Source: Pseudomonadota bacterium
GTDB lineage: Bacteria > Desulfobacterota > Desulfobacteria > Desulfobacterales > RPRI01
Direction of reading: 5' to 3'
Length of the DNA: 64,000 nucleotides
Assembly (NCBI GenBank): GCA_018817425.1
Contig: JAHITX010000023.1
Coordinates: 1 to 64,000 of the forward strand
In this document: one piece after another, positions 2,173-54,860 of the stretch
Layout of the letters: every line of letters starts with the position of its first letter
Numbering within the stretch: position 1 is the first letter of the stretch
Program-made: the position numbers and the translations under genes
The notes under the pieces: generated by a model
Told to the model about the DNA's origin: nothing
Database searches by the model: none
What the model saw: only the letters and a program-made list of their open reading frames with translations

Positions 2173-4155
2173 TCATAACAGCCTGCCCACCCGATGCCCG
2201 TCTCTTATGGCATCCCCTATACCGGAAAGGGATCCATGCGGGAAAGCACTGTCACCCACAATGTAAAGCTCACTGACTTTTCCCCGTAATGCCTTGTACA
2301 ACGAATCGTTTCGCTCTTTGCCGGTTATCAACACCACGGTGTCAATACCCTCTATTACCCTTTCCTGATGTGTAAAGACATTGATGACCTTCAGGCTATT
2401 TCCGGAAATCTCCCGGATGAGGGTTTGGGGAGTCAAGGTAACTTTAGGCAAGATACGGGAATAGACCCATGGAAGATGATTGGTAATAAGCAGATCCGCA
2501 CCCACGTAAAAGAATGAGGTCAGAATTTCGACCTGCTTGCCTTGGTCGGCCAGCCATTCGGCCAGACCCGGCCCAACAATATAGCGTGTCTCGTCCTGGA
2601 TTACTATTTTACTCCCGGCTTCCTTCCTCCCACTCAAGATCTCTTCCGGTGTTGTTACATTTTCCTGTTCCCAACCGGCAATAGGAGCAAACGTACCGGG
2701 GCTGAAACCATTTCTGTAATAAGAGGCGCCGGTAGCAAGAACCACGGCATCGGGTTTTGCTGCCAGAATTTCGTCAGCGGTTATTTCGTGGCCAAGTTTT
2801 ATGTCTACCCCTAATTTGGATACCTGCCCACGGAGCCATCGTCCAATTCCTTCTATTTCATTCCGGCCCGGAAGCTTGGCAGCAAGATTCACCTGCCCTC
2901 CTAAGGTGTTTTCCTTCTCATACACTGACACCGCATGGCCCTGCATAGCAGCCACCCGAGCCGCCTCCATTCCGGCAACGCCGCCCCCTACGATAAGAAC
3001 TCTTTTTTGCATCTTTGCCGCTTTAAGGGTTCCTACACCTAGCGCCATCTCCTCCCCAAGGGTTGGATTGACAGTACACTGAAGGGGGGCTCCGACAAAG
3101 AGCCTGCCTACACAATTCTCATTGTCTCCCAAGCATGGCCGAATATCTTCAAAGCGTCCTTCCCGAGCCTTGTTGGGAAGCTCCGGATCGGCAATGGTTG
3201 CCCGTGTCATTCCCACCAGATCAGCTTGTCCATTGGCAAGCACCTTCTCGGCATAGAGGGGATCAGTGATCCGGCCAACGGCAATAACCGGAAGATCGTT
3301 TAATGCTTCTTTGATGGCTGTAGCTCCATATAGCATATAGCCCACGGGAGCGTACAAGGGCGCAACTGCTATATGAAGCTGATGCGGTTCGATGCCTATA
3401 TCTATGCTCAAATAATCTACTTGTCTGGTTTCCTCTATCATTTGGGCTATGCGCTTCATATCCTCTATGGTGTTCCCTCCGGGAAACATTTCATCGGCAT
3501 TCAAACGCACACCAAGGGCCATGCCATTGTTCATTTCTGCTCGTACGCACTCGATTAATTCCCTTAAAAACAAAAAGCGATTTTCAAGTGAACCGCCATA
3601 TCTATCGGTACGATGATTCCAAAGGGGCGAAAGAAACTGATTTGCGGCCAAACCATGACAGGCATGAATCTCGACCCCATCAATGCCTGTCTGATTGATA
3701 TTGCGGACACAATTACCATAGCATTCAACCCATCCTGTAATTTCTTCTATTGTGAGTTCCGCGGCTGTGATATTGTTTCCCAAGCCGGGAACGGCTGATG
3801 GACCTTTACCGCTTCCCCATACTCCAATATTGACTAGCTCACAAAAAACCTTAGACCCATGCACATGTATAGCATCGGCAATCCTGGCAAGACCGGGAAT
3901 GCACTGCTTATCGTAACCCAAAATTGGTCGAAACCCATGAAGGTAAGGCTCAGGCATCACTAAAGGCGCTTCTATCTCTATCAACCCCACCCCGCCTTTG
4001 GCCTTTTCAGCATGAAAATAGATATGCCTTTCGCTGGGCAATCCTTCCGTAGTTGCGAAATTAGTGCTCACAGGAGTGCTGACGATCCGGTTAGGAATAA
4101 CTACAGGCCCTAAAGAAATTGGGGTGAACAGGTATTTAAATATCTCTTCAGCCAT
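2173..4155 (-). CDS. OYE/2,4-dienoyl-CoA reductase family flavin/Fe-S enzyme with an Asp in the cluster motif (OYE1)
   Basis: The 660-residue protein has the FadH/trimethylamine dehydrogenase architecture: FMN TIM barrel (about 1-335), iron-sulfur loop (341-360), then FAD/NAD-binding domains starting with VLIVGGGVAGMEAA near 384. The family reduces activated C=C bonds, and arylcarboxyl-CoA reductases such as 2-naphthoyl-CoA reductase belong to it. The cluster loop reads C341-LG-D344-NEN-C348, then C360. The second ligand is Asp (codon GAC), whereas family members and the paralogue at 60134 have Cys there. The barrel keeps HACHG but has Leu where the catalytic Tyr of HGY usually sits. The gene is single and divergent from regulator R1. 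Substrate unknown. Confidence 0.85.
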   Translation of the reverse strand: MAEEIFKYLFTPISLGPVVIPNRIVSTPVSTNFATTEGLPSERHIYFHAEKAKGGVGLIEIEAPLVMPEPYLHGFRPILGYDKQCIPGLARIADAIHVHGSKVFCELVNIGVWGSGKGPSAVPGLGNNITAAELTIEEITGWVECYGNCVRNINQTGIDGVEIHACHGLAANQFLSPLWNHRTDRYGGSLENRFLFLRELIECVRAEMNNGMALGVRLNADEMFPGGNTIEDMKRIAQMIEETRQVDYLSIDIGIEPHQLHIAVAPLYAPVGYMLYGATAIKEALNDLPVIAVGRITDPLYAEKVLANGQADLVGMTRATIADPELPNKAREGRFEDIRPCLGDNENCVGRLFVGAPLQCTVNPTLGEEMALGVGTLKAAKMQKRVLIVGGGVAGMEAARVAAMQGHAVSVYEKENTLGGQVNLAAKLPGRNEIEGIGRWLRGQVSKLGVDIKLGHEITADEILAAKPDAVVLATGASYYRNGFSPGTFAPIAGWEQENVTTPEEILSGRKEAGSKIVIQDETRYIVGPGLAEWLADQGKQVEILTSFFYVGADLLITNHLPWVYSRILPKVTLTPQTLIREISGNSLKVINVFTHQERVIEGIDTVVLITGKERNDSLYKALRGKVSELYIVGDSAFPHGSLSGIGDAIRDGHRVGRLL

Positions 4156-4247: not shown

Positions 4248-4274
4248 TTGACACAGGGATTTTTTTAGTATAAT
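4248..4274 (+). promoter_or_regulatory. Candidate promoter of regulator R1
   Basis: TTGACA (4248-4253) and TATAAT (4269-4274) are consensus hexamers but only 15 bases apart, so the fit is imperfect. The block TTGACACA-purines-T tract-GTATA is also found about 130 bases upstream of regulator R2 (17895), which argues that it is a conserved control region. It lies in the 230-base divergent gap between the OYE1 and R1 genes. Confidence 0.45.
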
Positions 4275-4385: not shown

Positions 4386-6002
4386 ATGTCACATAGAATT
4401 GTAAAACCACGAAATAACGTTTCGCCTGAAGATGTCAAACTTTTCAAATCCCTTGGATCTATAATCCAAGAATACCGGTTATGGCGGGGGATGAGCCAGG
4501 AAGTATTCGCAGAATCAATTAAAATCAGTGTTCGGCAATTACAGAATTGGGAAGCCAAACGTAGCCATGCCAGAATGGAGAATCTCCACGATATTTCCGA
4601 GTTTACAGGAATCCCGATGCAGGCTTTGGTGTCTCTTAATTCGGATCTGCCTGTCTGGTATTTCATACGGAAACGTCGTTTTACATATTCTTTGATCGAA
4701 ACAGAACAGTTTACCTCTCAGAAATTATTCAGGCCAAATGAAAAGCCGGAAGATCATTCTTTCCTTAATATAATCCCAATTAAAAAAGAAAAACACCTTG
4801 ATATGATTCTTTCATGTCACCGGGATCTTTACGGTACGGAAAAAACATTGCAAAAAGATGTAATTCTGGCAGCAGCAAGGCAATTTCCTGACATAAATGT
4901 CATTATCGTTGATTATTTTGGCCATTATGTAGGTCATCGAATCTGCTGGCCTTTAAAAATGGATGTATATCGGGAACTTATAAAACAAAAGACCATCGAG
5001 AACTATATAACAAGTGAAATGATTAGTGACATCATAAAGCTGGGTGAAGGGGTTTTTTTTAATTATTCTACCTTTTCTGCTAATGTAAACACATTATACA
5101 AAATGATTTTAGATGGTGTAGGATTCCTTTCCAAAATAAAACAAAAAGAAAAATACTTTCTTGCCACTCATACAGTCACAAAAGAAACATCGATCATACA
5201 AAACAATATGCAAATGAATTATGTGCGTAATTATCCTAATCCAAACGATGATGAAGTTTGCCCGGTAATCTATGAGACAACATTGGATTTTCAACTGAGA
5301 CCTGACGGGCCTTTTGGATGGATGTTGCATCCAACCAAAAAGAAAGCATCGACAAATAAACTGATTAACGGAATCAAACAGAAACAATCGCCGGCCAATT
5401 CTTTTCAAAACTCGGAGAAAATCTACCAATCAAGCGAAATCACCCGAAAAGCAGAAAACTGTTTGCCTTTAATAGTTGATGCTTTGCCTTTAATAGTTGA
5501 TAAAAAAAAGAATGATAAACATTCTGAAAAAGCGGGAAACTTTAATTTAAAAACAGAAACCTGCAAAAACCCCGAATGCACTTTTTATGGTAAAACTAAA
5601 CAAGGAAATATAGTTTCAAACGGGACATACCGGACACAAAAAGGAACGCCGGGCCGTAGATTCTTGTGCAAGGAATGCGGCAAATCATTTTGCAGCAGAA
5701 CAGGGACCATCTTTTATGATATCCGCTCTCCGGAAGAAAAGGTTTTAAAAGCTCTTAAACTTTTAGCCAAAGGAATGACATTGCAGTACGTAGTAAAATT
5801 TATGGGAGTTAAATTCCATACGATCGGTCGCTGGCTCGAACTGGCCGCTTTACAAAAAGAAAAAATAAATGTCTTACTGATCAATGAACCTGATATTTCC
5901 ATGACTGAGTTAGATACATTATGGAACTTTGTCAAAAAAAAATCTAATCGCCATAGGCCATCAATTTACAGGGGAAAAAACAAATCTTATGCAACTGAAT
6001 AG
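4386..6002 (+). CDS. Regulator R1: XRE HTH, possible GNAT-like domain, IS1-type zinc ribbon and HTH
   Basis: This 538-residue protein is one of three full-length paralogues here (also 18027-19652 and 52543-54015). Visible parts: XRE-type helix-turn-helix (about 20-83, with MSQEVFAESI and VRQLQNWE); a middle domain (about 136-285) with ILSCHRDLYG, YVGHRICWPL and EGVFF blocks that looks like a GNAT fold but lacks a clear acyl-CoA loop; a variable linker with two IVD motifs (363-365, 370-372); a zinc ribbon C393-x4-C398...C428-x2-C431; a second HTH (about 450-490); and an end, ELDTLWNFVKKK, matching the start of an IS1-type DDE domain. The catalytic domain itself is absent. It is divergent from OYE1, so local control of that gene is inferred. 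No obvious Shine-Dalgarno sequence; the start is set by alignment with R2. Confidence 0.8.
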   Translation: MSHRIVKPRNNVSPEDVKLFKSLGSIIQEYRLWRGMSQEVFAESIKISVRQLQNWEAKRSHARMENLHDISEFTGIPMQALVSLNSDLPVWYFIRKRRFTYSLIETEQFTSQKLFRPNEKPEDHSFLNIIPIKKEKHLDMILSCHRDLYGTEKTLQKDVILAAARQFPDINVIIVDYFGHYVGHRICWPLKMDVYRELIKQKTIENYITSEMISDIIKLGEGVFFNYSTFSANVNTLYKMILDGVGFLSKIKQKEKYFLATHTVTKETSIIQNNMQMNYVRNYPNPNDDEVCPVIYETTLDFQLRPDGPFGWMLHPTKKKASTNKLINGIKQKQSPANSFQNSEKIYQSSEITRKAENCLPLIVDALPLIVDKKKNDKHSEKAGNFNLKTETCKNPECTFYGKTKQGNIVSNGTYRTQKGTPGRRFLCKECGKSFCSRTGTIFYDIRSPEEKVLKALKLLAKGMTLQYVVKFMGVKFHTIGRWLELAALQKEKINVLLINEPDISMTELDTLWNFVKKKSNRHRPSIYRGKNKSYATE

Positions 6003-16017: not shown

Positions 16018-17544
16018 TCACCATTCGTAACCCATTTTTAAAGTCAACTCACTCGTACCTACAAGTCCGGCAAAGCCTGACTTGGCCGTCTTATCTCCAA
16101 AAAATGCATGTAAACCCAGATTGGCATAAAGATGAGGAGATATTTGCCAGCCTACAGTCGGATGGATGTAACCCGAGCCTCCTCCTGCCCCCGGCCTTCC
16201 GGGAGTATAGGCGGCAGCAAACACGGGAGCGATTCTACCCTGCCACCAGCTCCAACTCATGGTAAATCCAATTATGTCCATATCTCTTACCGGGCTTCCA
16301 GTTTTAGCAGCTTCAGGCGCATTTAAAGCAGACTCCCAACTGTTAATCTTCTGGTGAATCCACTCCAGGGAGAAACCAATCGGCTCATGACTGGTAATCC
16401 ATCGAACATAAACATTCTTGTCAACCGCTACCATAAACAGGGTGACCGGTTTTAAGCGAAAGTTGACCGCGTCCCCGTTAGGATAAAAATCGAATCCCGT
16501 ACCTCCTGCTATCAGGACCGGCTGAGCGTCATGCTGAGCAATCTCGCCTCTGAGGACCAGGTCCAACGGCGAGATCTGGTAGCTGAAATAAGCGCCGTAA
16601 ACGTTCTGGACCGGATGAGTGAGCAAGGCTGTAGAAAACCCATTCGTATATAATACGCCAGGATCATTGTTTACGTCCCGGTAGTAAGCCGCAGATACGC
16701 TGAGCAGCCCAATGTCCGCGGTTACCTTTGCTCCATACTCCTGTTTGTTGGTAGGCACATCCTGTCTGACATTCAATCCTTTTAGGCCGGCAAAAGGTAA
16801 TATGGAAATATAAGGCGCATTCATGCCTGCCGTCGGATTACCGGCGATACTGTCCAGTGGTGCAAATTGCGAGGGACGGATGTCCGGAACCCACAACAAA
16901 TCAAGATTCAGTCTTAAACCCCCTATAGGTGGAGCGCTGTAGTTTAACCTTGCCATCCAGAGAGGAATCGCAACGTCATCAGGGTTCTGAAAAAACAGCT
17001 GATAGGACTGATCCTTGGGACAAATAACATCCAAAAGGGTGGCGTTAGGTGAAGATTCACCCCAGGAGACAAGCTGCCTCCCAGGCCGGAAGAAAGCACT
17101 GCCCAGTGATCCACCATAAGTAAAGTCAATAAATACCTCGCGCAAATCAGACTCAAATCTGATATCTCTTAAACCATAATCAAATCTTGAAGCGCCTATA
17201 TTCTCCGTGATGTCACCATATTTGTTGGCCCGAAGATCGAATATCGAGTCATAAGCTCCCCGAAAGGTTATTTGGAACTTCTGCAACGCGAAATTACTCC
17301 ATTTTAAATCAGGGTCAATTGAAACATCGAACTTTAAGGTATTTCTCTGCTGAACTCCGTTCAGATGGTCCAGGAAACCATACTGAATACCGTTCTGATC
17401 ACGCATAACCATGTTTGATTCAAAATAACCGTGGAAACCAACTGAACTCTCCGCACTAACCCCAGTGGCAAAAAGCCCCACCATGGCTACAACAAGAAAA
17501 AAATACAACCACCTGCTTTTTCTATTTCCTCCTCTACTACTCAT
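16018..17544 (-). CDS. DUF1302 family outer-membrane protein (copy 2)
   Basis: The 508-residue protein starts at MSSRGGNRK, with AAAAGGAG upstream; a longer frame adds 17 residues without support. The signal peptide ends near TGVSA-ESS and the C-terminus is GYEW. It shares with copy 1 the blocks FHGYFESN, GVQQRNTLKFDV, SIFDLRAN, SDLRE-F-DF and FFRPGRQLVSWGE, and the same pattern of putative beta strands. It is the first gene of the long minus-strand run ending at 6192, divergent from regulator R2. The two copies differ most in surface-loop-like stretches, which could reflect different substrates. Confidence 0.85.
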   Translation of the reverse strand: MSSRGGNRKSRWLYFFLVVAMVGLFATGVSAESSVGFHGYFESNMVMRDQNGIQYGFLDHLNGVQQRNTLKFDVSIDPDLKWSNFALQKFQITFRGAYDSIFDLRANKYGDITENIGASRFDYGLRDIRFESDLREVFIDFTYGGSLGSAFFRPGRQLVSWGESSPNATLLDVICPKDQSYQLFFQNPDDVAIPLWMARLNYSAPPIGGLRLNLDLLWVPDIRPSQFAPLDSIAGNPTAGMNAPYISILPFAGLKGLNVRQDVPTNKQEYGAKVTADIGLLSVSAAYYRDVNNDPGVLYTNGFSTALLTHPVQNVYGAYFSYQISPLDLVLRGEIAQHDAQPVLIAGGTGFDFYPNGDAVNFRLKPVTLFMVAVDKNVYVRWITSHEPIGFSLEWIHQKINSWESALNAPEAAKTGSPVRDMDIIGFTMSWSWWQGRIAPVFAAAYTPGRPGAGGGSGYIHPTVGWQISPHLYANLGLHAFFGDKTAKSGFAGLVGTSELTLKMGYEW

Positions 17545-18026
17545 AACCTTGTCTCCTTTTGAATAGTGTTTTGATAACAACTTTACAAATACCAACTCCC
17601 ATTCTTTTTTTTATACCCCTCCTTTTTTATAGTATTTGACAGCACTAAAGAAATTTCTGCTACCATCGCATCATCATATAATGCGCGATCGGAGATAATC
17701 TGATGCTGCCTCAACGCCGGCAATGGGCGTTTTTCCTCAAAGTTGAATAAAGAAATATTGATTTTTTTAATTCAATGAACAAAAACAATATGTATTGTAC
17801 ACTCAGTTTATGGTAACAATCGTATATGTAGATAAAGAAATCTTGCAGGTAATAGTAGAATTAGTCTTTTTACTTATTTAATTATAAGCCTAACTTGACA
17901 CAAAAACTTTCTTTTGGTATATGTCAAAAAAATATAAAAATATCGAAATAATAATTGTATTCCATCTATTCAGCGCTTCCTGCTTTTTAAGCATCAACGG
18001 TACTTTGTGTCCTCATAGGATAAATT
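17545..18026. other. Divergent control region between DUF1302 copy 2 and regulator R2
   Basis: No gene was found in these 482 bases. The left part is the DUF1302 leader, similar to the one near 1740-1800. The right part holds the R2 promoter (17895-17923) and a leader with the core CATCAA (17992-17997) that also occurs upstream of R1 (4352-4357) and of the decayed copy (45297-45302) at about the same distance from the start codon. Confidence 0.5.
17895..17923 (+). promoter_or_regulatory. Candidate sigma-70 promoter of regulator R2
   Basis: TTGACA (17895-17900) and TATATG (17918-17923) are separated by 17 bases. TGTCAA follows at 17922-17927, making an inverted repeat with the -35 hexamer, a possible operator. 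About 100 bases upstream of the R2 start codon; a related block precedes R1. Confidence 0.5.
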
Positions 18027-19652
18027 ATGTCATCTAAGATTTCATTACAACGAAATGAACTTTCGTCTGAAAAAGTCATGCTATACAAATCCCTCGGATC
18101 TCTTAGTAAAGCATACCGGCAATGGCGTAAAATGAGCCAGGAAGTATTTGCAGAATCAATAAAAATAAGTGTTCGTGAATTACAGAATTGGGAAGCCAAT
18201 CGTCGACGTGCCCAAATTGAGAATCTCCATGATATTGCCGAATTTACCGGAATCCCCATGCAGGTGCTGATTGCTCTTAATGCAGATCAGCCTGTCTGGT
18301 ATTCACTGCGTAAGAGGTTGTTTATGTACTCTTCTATAGAAGAAGCACAGTTTTCCTCTCATGAGTTATTCAGGCATCGCGAAACATCTGATGATAACAA
18401 TCTTTTAAAGAAAGTCTCTATTACTAAAGACAAGCACATCGAAATGATTCTATCATGCCATCAAGATCTTTATGGTTCCAAGAAGCCATTGGAAAGTTCA
18501 ATTATTAAAGCTGCTATCAGTATAGTGCCCAACCTGAGTAACATGATATTTGACTCCTGGAACCATTTTGTGGGTCATCAGATATGCTTGCCTATAAAGC
18601 TGGAAGCATATCAAGCGCTTAAGAAACAAAAGACCATCGAAAATTATCTGACCCGTGAAATGATAAGTGATATTACTACACTGGACGAAGGAGTTTTCTT
18701 CTACTATTCTACATTCGGAGCCAATCTAAGCGCAGCATCACGACTAATTATAGTTGGTGCTCGTAGTCTTTCTGACATAAAACAGAAAGATGGCTACCTG
18801 ATCGCCAGCCATACGATCACAAAAGAAGCCGCGACTGTTCAGGAAAATGCGGGAATGAAGTTTGTTGGGAACTATGAGTGCATGCTTGATAATCTTCACT
18901 CTACCATATACGAGATTGGATTGAAATATTATCTGAGACCCAATGGGCCGGTAGGATGGATCATTGATCAGTTTAAGGAAGAAGTTTTGGTTAAAAAAAA
19001 GAAAAAACAAAACCAAAAGAAAATGTCACCGGTTCTTTCTGCTCAGGACCAGGACAAATCCAGCCATCCCGGAAAAAATTTTACACCAGCAAATATGTCA
19101 GAAAAAAATAATCACGCAATCGTTGATAAATTTGTTACAATCGTTGATGAAAATAAACGCAAAATCCAAGATGGTAAAACGCAATACATTAATTTAACAA
19201 TGGTAGCCTGTAAAAATCCAAAATGTACTCTTTATGGTAAAACAGAAAAAGGTAATATCGTTTTTAACGGAACATACCGGACAAAGCAAGGATCGCCAGG
19301 TCGGAGATTTCTATGCAAAAAATGCAGTAAATCATTTTGCCACAGAACAGGGACCATCTTTTATGACCTCCGTTCTCCTGAAGAAAAGGTTATAAAGTCT
19401 CTTAGTCTTTTGCTAAAAGGAATGCCTTTACAAGGTGTAGCAGACTCTTTGGGTACTACTAACAGCACGGTTCGACGATGGTTAGGCATTGCAACCAGAC
19501 AGAGTAAAAAATTAGATGCTCTGCTTATTAAGGAATACAATGTGTCTCCTATAGAGTTAGCTGCTTTATGGACTTTTGTTAAAACAAATTCTCTTCGCCC
19601 AAGAGCATTTCAAAGCAGGGCGAAAAATAAATCCTATTCAACAACAAAATAG
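18027..19652 (+). CDS. Regulator R2: XRE HTH, possible GNAT-like domain, IS1-type zinc ribbon and HTH
   Basis: The 541-residue paralogue of R1 has the same domain order: XRE HTH (about 20-83), possible GNAT-like middle domain (about 136-285, with ILSCHQDLYG, FVGHQICLPI, EGVFFYYSTF), a linker with IVD at 365-367 and 372-374, zinc ribbon C395-x4-C400...C430-x2-C433, HTH (about 452-492). The ending ELAALWTFVK has Ala512 where IS1-type transposases have the first DDE aspartate, so the end is not a catalytic remnant under selection for transposition. AGGAT lies near the start codon. It is divergent from the DUF1302-to-HdrB operon, and transcriptional control of that operon is inferred from position and the two DNA-binding domains. 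Confidence 0.8.
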   Translation: MSSKISLQRNELSSEKVMLYKSLGSLSKAYRQWRKMSQEVFAESIKISVRELQNWEANRRRAQIENLHDIAEFTGIPMQVLIALNADQPVWYSLRKRLFMYSSIEEAQFSSHELFRHRETSDDNNLLKKVSITKDKHIEMILSCHQDLYGSKKPLESSIIKAAISIVPNLSNMIFDSWNHFVGHQICLPIKLEAYQALKKQKTIENYLTREMISDITTLDEGVFFYYSTFGANLSAASRLIIVGARSLSDIKQKDGYLIASHTITKEAATVQENAGMKFVGNYECMLDNLHSTIYEIGLKYYLRPNGPVGWIIDQFKEEVLVKKKKKQNQKKMSPVLSAQDQDKSSHPGKNFTPANMSEKNNHAIVDKFVTIVDENKRKIQDGKTQYINLTMVACKNPKCTLYGKTEKGNIVFNGTYRTKQGSPGRRFLCKKCSKSFCHRTGTIFYDLRSPEEKVIKSLSLLLKGMPLQGVADSLGTTNSTVRRWLGIATRQSKKLDALLIKEYNVSPIELAALWTFVKTNSLRPRAFQSRAKNKSYSTTK

Positions 19653-19724: not shown

Positions 19725-20060
19725 CTATCTGTTGCAGGATAAATCAACTGCCTCTCGGCTGTCTATCCTTAATACCCGATCAGGTTGGCTCCTATCATTC
19801 TTATTAATTTGTGCCGGGCGACCACTGCGTTCCTTTTCTATAAGACCTCTTACGCCTTCATTATTTAGTCTCTGTATCCACTGCACCGCAGTCCAGCGAC
19901 TTACTTCGAAAAGTTCAGCTATCTGGCTACTGGTCCATCCATTCAGAACCAACAAACCAGCTGTAATACGAATACCCAGCCAGGTTTTTAGATCCTGTTG
20001 AGCCATTTCAAGAAGAGCTTTCTTTGTCACTGATTGATTGCTTATAGTTAATGCTTTCAT
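19725..20060 (-). mobile_element. IS630-family transposase fragment (N-terminal HTH only)
   Basis: The 111-codon frame holds the IS630-type DNA-binding region: a first HTH with GWTSSQIAELFEVSRWTAVQWIQR, then LNNEGVRGLIEKERSGRPAQI. A full protein would be about three times longer and contain a DDE domain. Here the frame ends in unrelated residues, and no DDE motif is visible downstream. No terminal inverted repeats are evident. It marks an old insertion between regulator R2 and the next operon. Confidence 0.7.
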
Positions 20061-20209
20061 TAAATTCTCCCGCTATCAAATTGCGTATTGTAAAAGTTGT
20101 ATTTACTTTACTATGTTTATTCTCTTTGATATGAATATATATGAGTGCTTACCGTATATGCACTCATACACAAACAGAGCAAAAACATAATAATGGTGTT
20201 AATATTTTG

Positions 20210-45331: not shown

Positions 45332-45798
45332 ATGTCATCTAAGTTTTCTTGACCACGAAAGAAGCTTTCGTCTAATAATGCCAAACTTTACAAATTTTCA
45401 GGGGCTTTTCTCAAAGAGTACCGGCAATGGCGGGAGGTAAGCCAGAAAAAACTAGCAGAATCAATCCGCATCAGCGTTCGTGAATTGCAAAATTGGGAGG
45501 CCAAGCATCGCAGTGCATGAATTGAGCATCTTTACGACCTATCGGAATTAAACGGACATCCGTAATTTCTGCCAGGAACCCGAAAAAATTAAGTTACCCG
45601 GAAAAAGGTCAACAGCCATCAAAGTTAACAGGCAAACGACTGCCCGTAATAGTTGATTTTAATCCTTTAATCGTTGATAAAGCCAGGCAGGAAAAACAAC
45701 ATGGTCATAAGAAATGTATTAAATGCCCTCAAATTTTTGGTTACGAAGAGATGGCATTTAAGCTTCCCTTCTCATTTGACGAATCGGATAATTTCTGA
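45332..45798 (+). pseudogene. Decayed fourth copy of the R-type regulator
   Basis: From ATG 45332 the translation starts MSSKFS, meets a stop (TGA) at codon 7, continues as KEYRQWREVSQKKLAES and VRELQNWEAKH, then stops again (TGA, then TAA at 45563). These are recognisably the XRE helix-turn-helix of R1-R3. In another frame, from 45640, comes LPVIVDFNPLIVDK, the double IVD linker motif, then C-IK-C (the zinc-ribbon position) and divergent sequence to 45798. The middle domain and the IS1-like HTH are missing. An internal deletion plus stops and a frame change make this a pseudogene. The upstream leader (CATCAA at 45297-45302) is conserved. The flanks 45064-45331 and 45799-45894 hold no other gene. 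Confidence 0.85.
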
Positions 45799-52542: not shown

Positions 52543-54015
52543 TTACCGATCTTTTTTTGTTTCATGCCAGATAGCTGCTCTTTTTCGAAGGGCATTTTTT
52601 TTGGCAAAAGCCCATAAAGCGTTTAAACCTGCCTGGGATACTTTAATTTGTTTTTTTAAAAGAGAATCTATTTTATTGCTGTTTTCCGAAGCAATCGTGA
52701 GCCAATGTCTGACGGTATCACGTTTTACATTCAATACATCCGCCACTTCTCTAATAGGCATTCCTTTGGCTAACAGTTTAAGGGCCAGAAGAATCTGATC
52801 TTCGGATATTTTAAGGTCATAGAAAACGGAATCTGATCTGCTACAGAAAGATTTTTTGCATTCTTTGCAAATAAATTTAAAAGACATCGAGCCGTCTTTT
52901 GTCCGGTATGTTCCGTTTGAAACTATGTTGCCTTTGTTTTTCTTTCCTTTCAATGTACACACCGGATTAGGACATACCTTACCTGCTTTTTTATCAACTA
53001 TTATCGGGCCATTATCAAGCGAATCAGCAACAAAGAAGTTGCCCTGATCTTTGATTGGCACATCAGCAGAACTTTCAATAATTTCAAAGTTTTCATACCG
53101 TTTAAGTAATGCATCCAGGCCTATCTCATATAAATCAGGAATAATTTCAGGAATGGGCTTGTCTTTTGTTTCGTAAGAAATTGATATTTTCTCCATTCCA
53201 AGCTTTTCACAAGACAAATTCAACTCTTGTGTACCTGCCCAGGCAGCACTTACGAATCTGTCTTTTTGATTAATCTTATTATAAAACTGTGCAGGATTTA
53301 TAAAAAGCAAATGGCCGACATTCCAGCTTGCTGCAAACAAAGAATAAAGGAAAAAAACTCCTTCATTAAGGGAGGCAACAGCGCTGATTTTTTCGGCTGT
53401 AAGGTAATTTTCTATTGGTGTATGTTTTTTAAGCTCTTGATATACATTAATTTTCAAGGGCAAACATACATGATGTCCCACATAATGTCCCCAGGAGTCA
53501 AAAGCAATCAAATTCAATTCAGGAGCAGCTATAGTTGCCGCTTTGATAACATCTTTTCCCAAAGATTTCTTTGCACTATATAAATCACGATGGCATGAAA
53601 GAATAGCTTGAATGTGCTTATCTGTCGAAATTCTGACAGGTTTTATAACAATTCCGTCATCAATTTCTTTTCGGTTTTTAAATAAATCATCCAGTGAAAA
53701 GTTAATAGTTTCTGCTGATGAATAGGCAAATCTTCTTTCGCCTAAAGAATACCACAAAGGCTGGCCGGCATTCAGCGCGACGCACACCTGCATAGGAATG
53801 CCGGATGCTTCGGAAAGGTCGTGAAGATTTTCGATGCGGGCCCGGCAGTGACCCATTTCCCAATTTTGCAATTCCCTTAAGCTGATTCCAACAAGCTCTG
53901 AGAATTTCTCCTGGGTCAGCGCACGCCAACTCCGATAATCTTTAATAAGATGCCCAAGCGATTTATAAAACTTGATATTATCGGACGCAATGTTTTTTCG
54001 TAGCAAGTTGCCCAT
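52543..54015 (-). CDS. Regulator R3: XRE HTH, possible GNAT-like domain, IS1-type zinc ribbon and HTH
   Basis: The 490-residue protein is shorter than R1 and R2, mainly in the linker and zinc-ribbon approach. Domain order: XRE HTH (about 18-81), possible GNAT-like middle domain (about 132-280, with ILSCHRDLYS, YVGHHVCLPL, EGVFFLYSLF), a single clear IVD (339-341, with VAD further upstream at 329-331), zinc ribbon C348-x4-C353...C383-x2-C386, HTH (about 405-445), and an IS1-like end GLNALWAFAKK, where Asn465 replaces the DDE aspartate. No Shine-Dalgarno sequence; the start is set by homology. It is divergent from the SDR-to-OYE operon at 54123 and probably controls it (inference). Confidence 0.8.
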   Translation of the reverse strand: MGNLLRKNIASDNIKFYKSLGHLIKDYRSWRALTQEKFSELVGISLRELQNWEMGHCRARIENLHDLSEASGIPMQVCVALNAGQPLWYSLGERRFAYSSAETINFSLDDLFKNRKEIDDGIVIKPVRISTDKHIQAILSCHRDLYSAKKSLGKDVIKAATIAAPELNLIAFDSWGHYVGHHVCLPLKINVYQELKKHTPIENYLTAEKISAVASLNEGVFFLYSLFAASWNVGHLLFINPAQFYNKINQKDRFVSAAWAGTQELNLSCEKLGMEKISISYETKDKPIPEIIPDLYEIGLDALLKRYENFEIIESSADVPIKDQGNFFVADSLDNGPIIVDKKAGKVCPNPVCTLKGKKNKGNIVSNGTYRTKDGSMSFKFICKECKKSFCSRSDSVFYDLKISEDQILLALKLLAKGMPIREVADVLNVKRDTVRHWLTIASENSNKIDSLLKKQIKVSQAGLNALWAFAKKNALRKRAAIWHETKKDR

Positions 54016-54122: not shown

Positions 54123-54860
54123 ATGAGACGATTGGACAATAAAATTTCTATTGTTACCGGTGCCGGTTCGGGCATTGGAAGGGCAATTACGTTAAGATTT
54201 GCCTCCGAAGGTTCAAAGGTAATGGCGGTCGATATTGACGGCAGCGAAAAAAAAGTTTCAGTAGAAGCACAAGGAGAAGTATTTCCTTTTAAATGTGATG
54301 TAAGCAGACCCGATCAGGTTTCCAATATGATAAATGAATGTCGTAAAAATTTTGGTAAACTTGATATTATATGCAATAATGCCGGAATAAACGTCGCTCC
54401 AAAACGCCTTCATGAATACAGTATTGAAGAGTGGGATAAAGTAATGAACGTTAATTTACGTGGTGCATTCTTCGTTATGAAAAATTCAATTAAACTAATG
54501 CTGGAAAGCGGCGGTGGTTCCATCATTAATACAAGTTCAATCGGCGCTTTTCGGGCAAGCCCTATGGTATCGGCTTATCTTGCCTCAAAAGGAGCAATTA
54601 ATATGCTTACACGTGCAACGGCTCTCGAATATGTAAATGACGGCATCCGTGTAAACGCAGTCTGTCCGGGTGCTGTCAAAACGCCCATATTCGATGATGC
54701 TCCGCCGGGATTTTTAGAAACTCTTGTATCACAAATACCCATGGGAAGATTATGCGAACCGGACGAAGTAGCATCTCTGACACTCTTTCTTGCATCGGAT
54801 GAAGCATCTCATATAACAGGAGCTACATATATTATAGATGGAGGAAGAAGCGCCGGTTGA
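54123..54860 (+). CDS. SDR-family dehydrogenase (SDR4)
   Basis: The 245-residue classical SDR has the loop TGAGSGIGR, NNAG, Ser in NTSSIG and Y-LAS-K, with VCPGAVKTP following. GAGGGTTG lies 8 bases before the start. First gene of the + strand run and divergent from regulator R3. It is a likely alcohol or ketone oxidoreductase of the pathway; substrate unknown. Confidence 0.85.
   Translation: MRRLDNKISIVTGAGSGIGRAITLRFASEGSKVMAVDIDGSEKKVSVEAQGEVFPFKCDVSRPDQVSNMINECRKNFGKLDIICNNAGINVAPKRLHEYSIEEWDKVMNVNLRGAFFVMKNSIKLMLESGGGSIINTSSIGAFRASPMVSAYLASKGAINMLTRATALEYVNDGIRVNAVCPGAVKTPIFDDAPPGFLETLVSQIPMGRLCEPDEVASLTLFLASDEASHITGATYIIDGGRSAG

Follow-up and report, generated by a model that had tools for sequence, protein, structure and literature searches.

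Three genes, R1, R2 and R3, in the 64,000-nucleotide stretch of DNA analysed here (the window) belong to a lineage-specific family of putative local regulators that appears to have arisen by fusion of an XRE-GNAT gene with the left inverted repeat (IRL) and the insA gene of an IS1 element. Sequence comparison gives good support to an origin of these regulators from InsA plus IRL. It is most likely, on the strength of covariation between protein and DNA, that the InsA part of each protein binds gene-specific repeat units that lie within its own gene, and we hypothesise, by analogy with IS1, that this binding is autorepressive. Taken as a whole, we consider this the probable explanation for the family.

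The reading frames of R1, R2 and R3 are open throughout, and share the layout of the wider family, in which an XRE helix-turn-helix (HTH) is followed by a GNAT fold, a disordered linker and an InsA-type zinc ribbon with its HTH. The genes and the parts of R1 discussed below are as follows.

4386..6002, + strand: R1, 538 aa, in the order XRE HTH, GNAT fold, disordered linker, InsA part
18027..19652, + strand: R2, 541 aa, architecture as R1
52543..54015, - strand: R3, 490 aa, architecture as R1
4749..5291, + strand: GNAT-fold domain of R1 (aa 122-302), from an AlphaFold2 model and structure comparison
5562..5999, + strand: InsA part of R1 (zinc ribbon, HTH, diverged ORF1 tail), 56% identical in alignment to the ORF1 of the IS1 in genome G168
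5811..5819, + strand: R1 codons 476-478 (K-F-H), where the InsA recognition helix starts; 476 and 478 show the strongest covariation with the in-gene unit among 344 columns
5913..5915, + strand: R1 Asp510, which aligns with the Asp of the IS1 LDxxW motif that opens the DDE domain
5934..5942, + strand: A9 tract of R1, where IS1 has its AAAAAAC frameshift site, from sequence and alignment

In R1 the XRE HTH spans approximately aa 20-85, the linker aa 317-387 and the InsA part aa 393-538. All three proteins match Pfam HTH_3 with 35-47 bits, above its curated cut-off of 23. The NCBIfam IS1 transposase model NF033558 matches R1 over profile positions 6-114 of 199 (E 8e-12) and R3 over positions 8-111 (E 9e-9), both below the curated cut-off; R2 is not among the matches, although it has 59% identity with an IS1 ORF1. 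For R1, an AlphaFold2 model (built from 35 sequences; mean pLDDT 74, pTM 0.54) predicts disorder across linker residues 317-387 and a helix, 506-522, around the former catalytic Asp. Its GNAT domain resembles Naa50 (6z00_A; VIA-align Z 13.4, rmsd 3.1 over 148 aligned residues) and the GNAT-like domain of CurA (Z 12.8). The loop with which GNAT enzymes hold the pyrophosphate of CoA reads R/Q-x-x-G-x-G/A and follows strand 4; because no such motif was seen by eye in the family consensus after strand 222-231 (YSxFxA...), the modelled domain may function as a sensor and not as an enzyme.

A preliminary description of this DNA had proposed that R1-R3 stop where the DDE domain of IS1 opens, that the rest of this domain is missing from all three, and that they represent the exapted DNA-binding half of a transposase. 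The end points were verified from the reading frames and from the C-terminal tails (R1 ELDTLWNFVKKK, R2 ELAALWTFVK, R3 GLNALWAFAKK), and no catalytic domain follows any of them. At E 0.001, the second half of the IS1 model matches this genome only at a decayed fragment on another contig, C60, which among the matches listed is also the only one to extend past profile position 128 of 199. The further statement that the catalytic Asp is lost in two of the three proteins holds for R2 and R3 and does not carry over to the family: 28 of the 40 InsA-bearing genes that reach this column keep Asp (28 of 39 without C116), the others having Asn (6), Ala (4) or Glu (2), while three of the full 43 end before the column and were left out of the count.

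What explains the shared end point is the structure of IS1 itself. A search of 297 genomes of the phylum with an intact IS1 transposase (L040) as query identified two-ORF IS1 elements. ORF1 of the G168 element (L131) reaches VELDALWSFVKKNSLRQRAILWRAK and stops 12 residues further on, as does that of the G084 element (L133), and the regulators end close to this natural ORF1 end in what are the nearest IS1s found. All four IS1 ORF1s examined carry AAAAAAC near their end, which is the frameshift motif of E. coli IS1 (PMC12428005). A -1 shift at this site enters ORF2 in three of them, with products of 253, 237 and 238 aa; in the L135 element the -1 frame is open for 85 aa only. The zero-frame tail beyond the site is specific to InsA and absent from the -1 product, and 31 of the 43 regulators, including R2 and R3, retain it in recognisable form (L[RHS]xRA, LRQRA-type). 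It has diverged in R1, and this form is missing from R1 and 11 others. Because so many regulators keep the zero-frame tail, the captured piece is, judged by its sequence, InsA, the IS1 repressor, and not a chopped transposase. The idea of an exapted DNA-binding half of IS1 was borne out, and that of a truncated transposase was not, since InsA has the same natural end. Among the 38 regulators that reach the frameshift position, the A-run is at least six long in 10 (nine in R1, eight in R3, and eight others) and two to five long in 28, and no second ORF was seen in any; none follows the A9 tract of R1. A full-length version running from an XRE to a DDE domain, singled out in the preliminary description as contrary evidence, was found in none of the genomes searched.

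Terminal inverted repeats had been another suggested line of enquiry. None flanks the family genes, where no candidate was better than the units of other genes; the left end alone is present, inside the gene, where it is translated as the linker. The relevant features, which include a decayed fourth copy of the gene, are listed here.

5463..5480, + strand: R1 unit copy 1 (TTGCCTTTAATAGTTGAT, encoding LPLIVD), resembling the IRL of the L131 IS1
5484..5501, + strand: R1 unit copy 2, identical (TTGCCTTTAATAGTTGAT), 21 nt downstream; from sequence
19110..19127, + strand: R2 unit copy 1 (AATCACGCAATCGTTGAT); from sequence
19131..19148, + strand: R2 unit copy 2 (TTTGTTACAATCGTTGAT); from sequence
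52993..53010, - strand: single IRL-like unit of R3 (GGCCCGATAATAGTTGAT); from sequence
45332..45720, + strand: decayed fourth copy in the window, with an XRE start containing stop codons, GNAT missing and the linker kept
45640..45678, + strand: two IRL-like units of the decayed copy (45640-45657 and 45661-45678), 21 nt apart; from sequence

The linker contains direct repeats with GTTGAT ends. The IRL of the G168 IS1 reads GGTAGTGACCCTTTAATAGTTGATAAA, and the unit GACCCTTTAATAGTTGAT (DPLIVD), found in C79b and L084, is identical to it at 18 of 18 nt. Translated IRL-like units are present in 38 of the 43 InsA-bearing genes; an in-frame GTTG unit is missing from L074, L076, L079, L085 and L086, and the tandem repeats at this site end GATGAT or ATTGAT in L076 and L079 and CTTGAT/CTTGGT in L086. 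By our count, 22 of 43 genes have an exact tandem repeat of at least 9 nt with a period of 18-27 at the linker site, and the spacing from unit to unit varies (18, 21, 24 or 27 nt). Repeats of at least 10 nt that end GTTG[AG] occur 12 times in the 468 kb examined, always within family genes. Most units have drifted away from the IS1 repeat. Even so, a matrix built solely from regulator units (70 units, 38 genes) ranks the IRL and the right inverted repeat (IRR) of the G168 element first and second of approximately 7,260 positions at that locus. In the G084 element its top site lies approximately 50 nt ahead of ORF1, and in the L141 element the first match is just ahead of ORF1, the ends being undefined in L141 and L132; the ends of L129 rank second and third, and those of L130 and L135 fall outside the top four. 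The IS1s of G046 and G057 were considered as sources and set aside, as their ends are only loosely unit-like and are not in the matrix top four. Because of the 18 of 18 identity to the IRL and the ranking of the G168 ends, we identify the linker as a translated IS1 left inverted repeat, often duplicated in tandem.

The genome from which the window comes (5.12 Mb, 99% complete) has 15 copies of the family and some remnants. The full family is present in three of ten genomes of the genus, this one included, at 15, at least 16 and at least 24 copies, numbers which are our counts of listed places, with not every candidate scored. The other seven have no member bar one XRE-only match (G004), one of these genomes being just 63% complete. 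A scan with two peptide patterns taken from the XRE part placed 36 of 37 loci in two MAGs, JAHIFE01 (KR11) and DYJH01 (labelled Desulfonema limicola FI88_41_9), the remaining locus being a weak XRE match. So many dispersed copies, with IS1-like ends in most of those that bear InsA, might suggest non-autonomous IS1 elements still mobilised in trans by an IS1 transposase. We regard this as extremely improbable: no inverted copy of the unit within 700 nt downstream exceeds chance or beats the units of other genes, the outer GGTAG of the IS1 end is missing from the R1 and C79b linkers, the XRE-GNAT part lies outside the IS1 end, and the 11 other aligned copies in the genome are 41-53% identical to R1, which makes them old paralogues. 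Solo IRL sites are likewise lacking. All three matches (16-mers) with at most one mismatch in the genome fall in family genes, C79b and R1 only, and at two mismatches there are eight (two in R3 and the decayed copy, six elsewhere) versus seven for a reversed-pattern control.

Several family members depart from the common architecture. L030 (4280-5263), L097 (369-1364) and L098 (534-1475) end after the GNAT fold, and these copies without InsA may be either pre-fusion forms or later losses. L031 (5579-8164; C116 of the window's own genome) encodes an 861-aa paralogue in which GNAT and part of the linker are duplicated internally, and in L099 (4004-5548) a different domain replaces the C-terminal InsA part behind XRE and GNAT. 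Beside R2, at approximately 19725-20061 on the - strand, lies a short ORF that by eye resembles a transposase HTH alone, of IS630 type; a similar segment is fused ahead of a family member in C134 (L034 5329-6777).

The alignment and phylogeny of the zinc-ribbon and HTH part, also called for at the outset, group the regulators with the G168 and G084 IS1 ORF1s. Nine listed InsA parts from the window's genome are 52-64% identical to the G168 ORF1, and a tree built on 58 InsA parts places all 42 of its regulators together with the two ORF1s (94/87), apart from 14 other IS1 rows. This is compatible with, and does not prove, a single IS1 capture, the tree leaving a regulator-only clade undecided. 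Since the genes with a single unit (R3, C79b, L084 and L089) form a supported clade (99/95), the single in-gene unit may be the older state. No pre-fusion XRE-GNAT gene was found in 394 other genomes of the phylum at E 0.001, and a sequence search of the PDB with the G168 ORF1 returned only two short zinc-finger matches, to human PRDM9.

The units are constrained in their DNA sequence. At the V[DG] sites of the linker, Val is encoded by GTT in 66 of 67 cases; elsewhere in the same genes GTT makes up 464 of 1168 Val codons. Copies of the unit match at 6.42 of 9 nt within a gene versus 4.01 of 9 between genes (31 genes; 0 of 20,000 permutations), a comparison diluted by C79b, L084 and L089, whose second listed unit is an upstream GTTG site and not a tandem copy. 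Where the residue is the same, codons agree at 50 of 57 positions within genes versus 275 of 670 between genes, silent positions included. The raw unit distance correlates with every part of the protein (r 0.15-0.40). In partial Mantel tests that allow for XRE and GNAT, unit divergence tracks the InsA HTH (r 0.31; 0 of 2000 permutations; 37 genes) above the zinc ribbon (r 0.19) and the tail (r 0.02); linkage alone predicts the reverse order of zinc ribbon and HTH, because the zinc ribbon is nearer to the linker. XRE and GNAT were rejected as readers of the unit, with r 0.04 and 0.07 once the InsA parts are allowed for. Of 344 columns, the one that covaries most strongly with the unit is R1 position 476, followed by 478, both where the recognition helix starts (top value, 0 of 2000 permutations; both top columns within 473-487 in 0.25%), with the Mantel and column permutations removing shared ancestry only in part. 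Four of the top ten columns are in the HTH region and the rest elsewhere in the protein, ranks 5-9 being a mixture in or next to the GNAT and XRE parts. The internally duplicated C116 was dropped from the tree, the Mantel tests and the column covariation, and the five genes without a unit from the unit statistics. For the InsA part, dN/dS is approximately 0.11-0.24 in 11 pairs chosen by eye, which indicates purifying selection on the coding sequence.

These results bear on whether the InsA part and linker are an inherited, DNA-inert tail, with regulation left to XRE-GNAT and the repeats acting as peptide linkers spread by slippage. Slippage can produce tandem repeats of 18-27 nt, the linker is predicted to be disordered, and a few copies that may still function (C58, L097 and L098) have no InsA part. 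The near-invariant GTT codon, a covariation with the recognition helix that exceeds that with XRE or GNAT, and the purifying selection on InsA all argue the other way, making an inert tail unlikely. A catalytic function that is lost, a coding sequence apparently under purifying selection and a conserved, non-mobile context are what an exapted transposon-derived regulator would be expected to present.

How InsA would act from within the gene is a separate matter. In E. coli, the InsA of IS1 is a repressor of the promoter from which it is expressed, which overlaps the IRL, and it binds the inverted repeats (PMC12428005), so that repression of its own gene by the InsA part would be the simplest carry-over. 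The same binding evidence would also apply if InsA acted from the in-gene units as an activator, anchored a loop to a promoter bound by XRE, or blocked read-through from the convergent gene. The position of the R1 units, approximately 1.1 kb past the ATG, and a convergent downstream neighbour in 28 of 41 cases lend weight to such roles; the known action of InsA is repression, and we consider them doubtful. Action of InsA at the promoter is not demonstrable, because no units were found near promoters and the 700 nt on either side of a gene show no enrichment of its units (upstream P 0.62, downstream P 0.78). Against binding and autorepression through these units stand their variable spacing, which is unusual for the operator of a rigid dimer, the five of 43 genes that lack one, and the presence of an exact tandem repeat in only 22 of 43.

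Family genes usually lie divergent to their upstream neighbour, as in the window.

2173..4155, - strand: gene divergent to R1, OYE-like flavoprotein reductase, named by eye
16018..17595, - strand: gene divergent to R2, DUF1302-type outer membrane protein, named by eye
54123..54860, + strand: gene divergent to R3, short-chain dehydrogenase, named by eye
4248..4253, + strand: probable -35 box of R1, TTGACA, 138 nt ahead of the ATG

The upstream neighbour is divergent for 36 of 39 family genes versus 12 of 113 other ORFs of at least 250 aa at the same loci, on mechanical ORF calls (49 family genes, 39 with an upstream ORF in the DNA examined). An exact TTGACA occurs in 37 of 46 family upstream regions, an unusually uniform -35-like box and the sole upstream motif found. 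A DUF1329 gene lies within 3 kb of eight of the 15 copies in the window's genome, where 0.7 are expected (P 7e-8; 26 of 29 rows used, with two on C112 merged and the weak C128 and C61 excluded). DUF1329 is greatly expanded in this genome (29 rows), with many beside regulators. Among the neighbours that could be named by eye are DUF1302-type outer membrane proteins, aldehyde oxidoreductases, short-chain dehydrogenases and molybdenum hydroxylases, because of which the neighbourhood suggests catabolism of hydrophobic compounds. Such a setting weighs against a defence in which the InsA parts occupy the inverted repeats of resident IS1s and silence or block them. InsA supplied from a separate locus nearly abolished transposition of E. 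coli IS1 (PMC12428005), and an IS1 match above the model cut-off was found in none of the ten genus genomes. However, such matches are also missing from the seven genomes that lack the family, of which G004 has one short fragment, most units have diverged from the IS1 repeat and track the HTH of their own gene, and the genes stand divergent to neighbours that are often catabolic. We therefore hold a role in anti-IS1 defence to be very unlikely.

The computational comparisons show the origin from InsA plus IRL, the constraint on the nucleotides of the units, their covariation with the recognition helix and the divergent position beside catabolic genes; DNA binding, autorepression, the sensor role and the XRE target are what we infer from them. 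In the resulting scheme, a gene encoding an XRE domain and a GNAT fold was joined to the left end and insA (ORF1) of a two-ORF IS1, and the fusion has neither the catalytic ORF2 nor a right inverted repeat. The left inverted repeat became a coding linker (DPLIVD), which was duplicated in tandem in many copies and whose nucleotides remain constrained. The HTH of each InsA part would most likely bind the repeats of its own gene as IS1 InsA binds the IRL, and so repress or tune its expression. Recognition helix and repeat have diverged jointly across the copies, of which a genome has 15 to 24 or more, and this would prevent paralogues from binding each other's sites. The XRE domain would have as its target the promoter region that the gene shares with the operon divergent to it, and the GNAT fold would be the sensor. 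More tentatively, with the odds slightly on the other side, a single IS1 capture may have yielded a series of orthogonal repressor-operator pairs, in which the operator lies in the coding sequence of the repressor and co-diversifies with its recognition helix without cross-talk. If true, the 15 to 24 or more paralogues in a cell would constitute a natural orthogonal set. Visible here side by side are the protein, the DNA site that it presumably binds and a living element closely related to the ancestral one; the many diverged copies amount to a built-in covariation experiment on the recognition code of an IS1 HTH, and a transposon end has seemingly been kept as a binding site while being translated, so that one set of bases is both a candidate operator and the code for a peptide linker.

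Regulators exapted from transposons are known as a class. Transposase DNA-binding domains domesticated as regulators are well known in eukaryotes and, to our knowledge, are less documented in bacteria. In literature searched by title and abstract opening, with coverage that excludes most subscription journals, we found neither an InsA fusion regulator nor a captured InsA whose own inverted repeat serves as a translated, duplicated and co-diversifying site. Among known regulators, PRK08154 (NF006015), a regulator of anaerobic benzoate catabolism, shares the N-terminal XRE HTH and, by its name, the link to anaerobic catabolism, but its match is confined to the XRE part (22-26 bits versus a cut-off of 204) and we know of no InsA part in it. 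TldR proteins are derived from TnpB, with catalysis lost. As RNA-guided transcription factors they too are transposon proteins exapted as bacterial regulators; they use a guide RNA, whereas the regulators described here appear to use a protein HTH and sites in their own gene. The G168 IS1 (L131) is close in sequence, with an ORF1 near to the InsA parts and an IRL identical over 18 nt to the unit of two regulators. The G168 and G084 elements differ in keeping ORF2 and in lacking the XRE and GNAT parts; both inverted repeats are present in L131, and a matching right end was not found for the G084 IS1 (L133). With InsA of E. coli IS1 (PMC12428005), the regulators share the zinc finger and HTH; where InsA has AAAAAAC near its end, they have an A-run of variable length. 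They differ in that InsA is fused behind an XRE domain and a GNAT fold, in that ORF2 and the IRR are absent, in that the IRL-like site lies inside the ORF, where it is translated and often duplicated, and in the presence of many diverged copies per genome.
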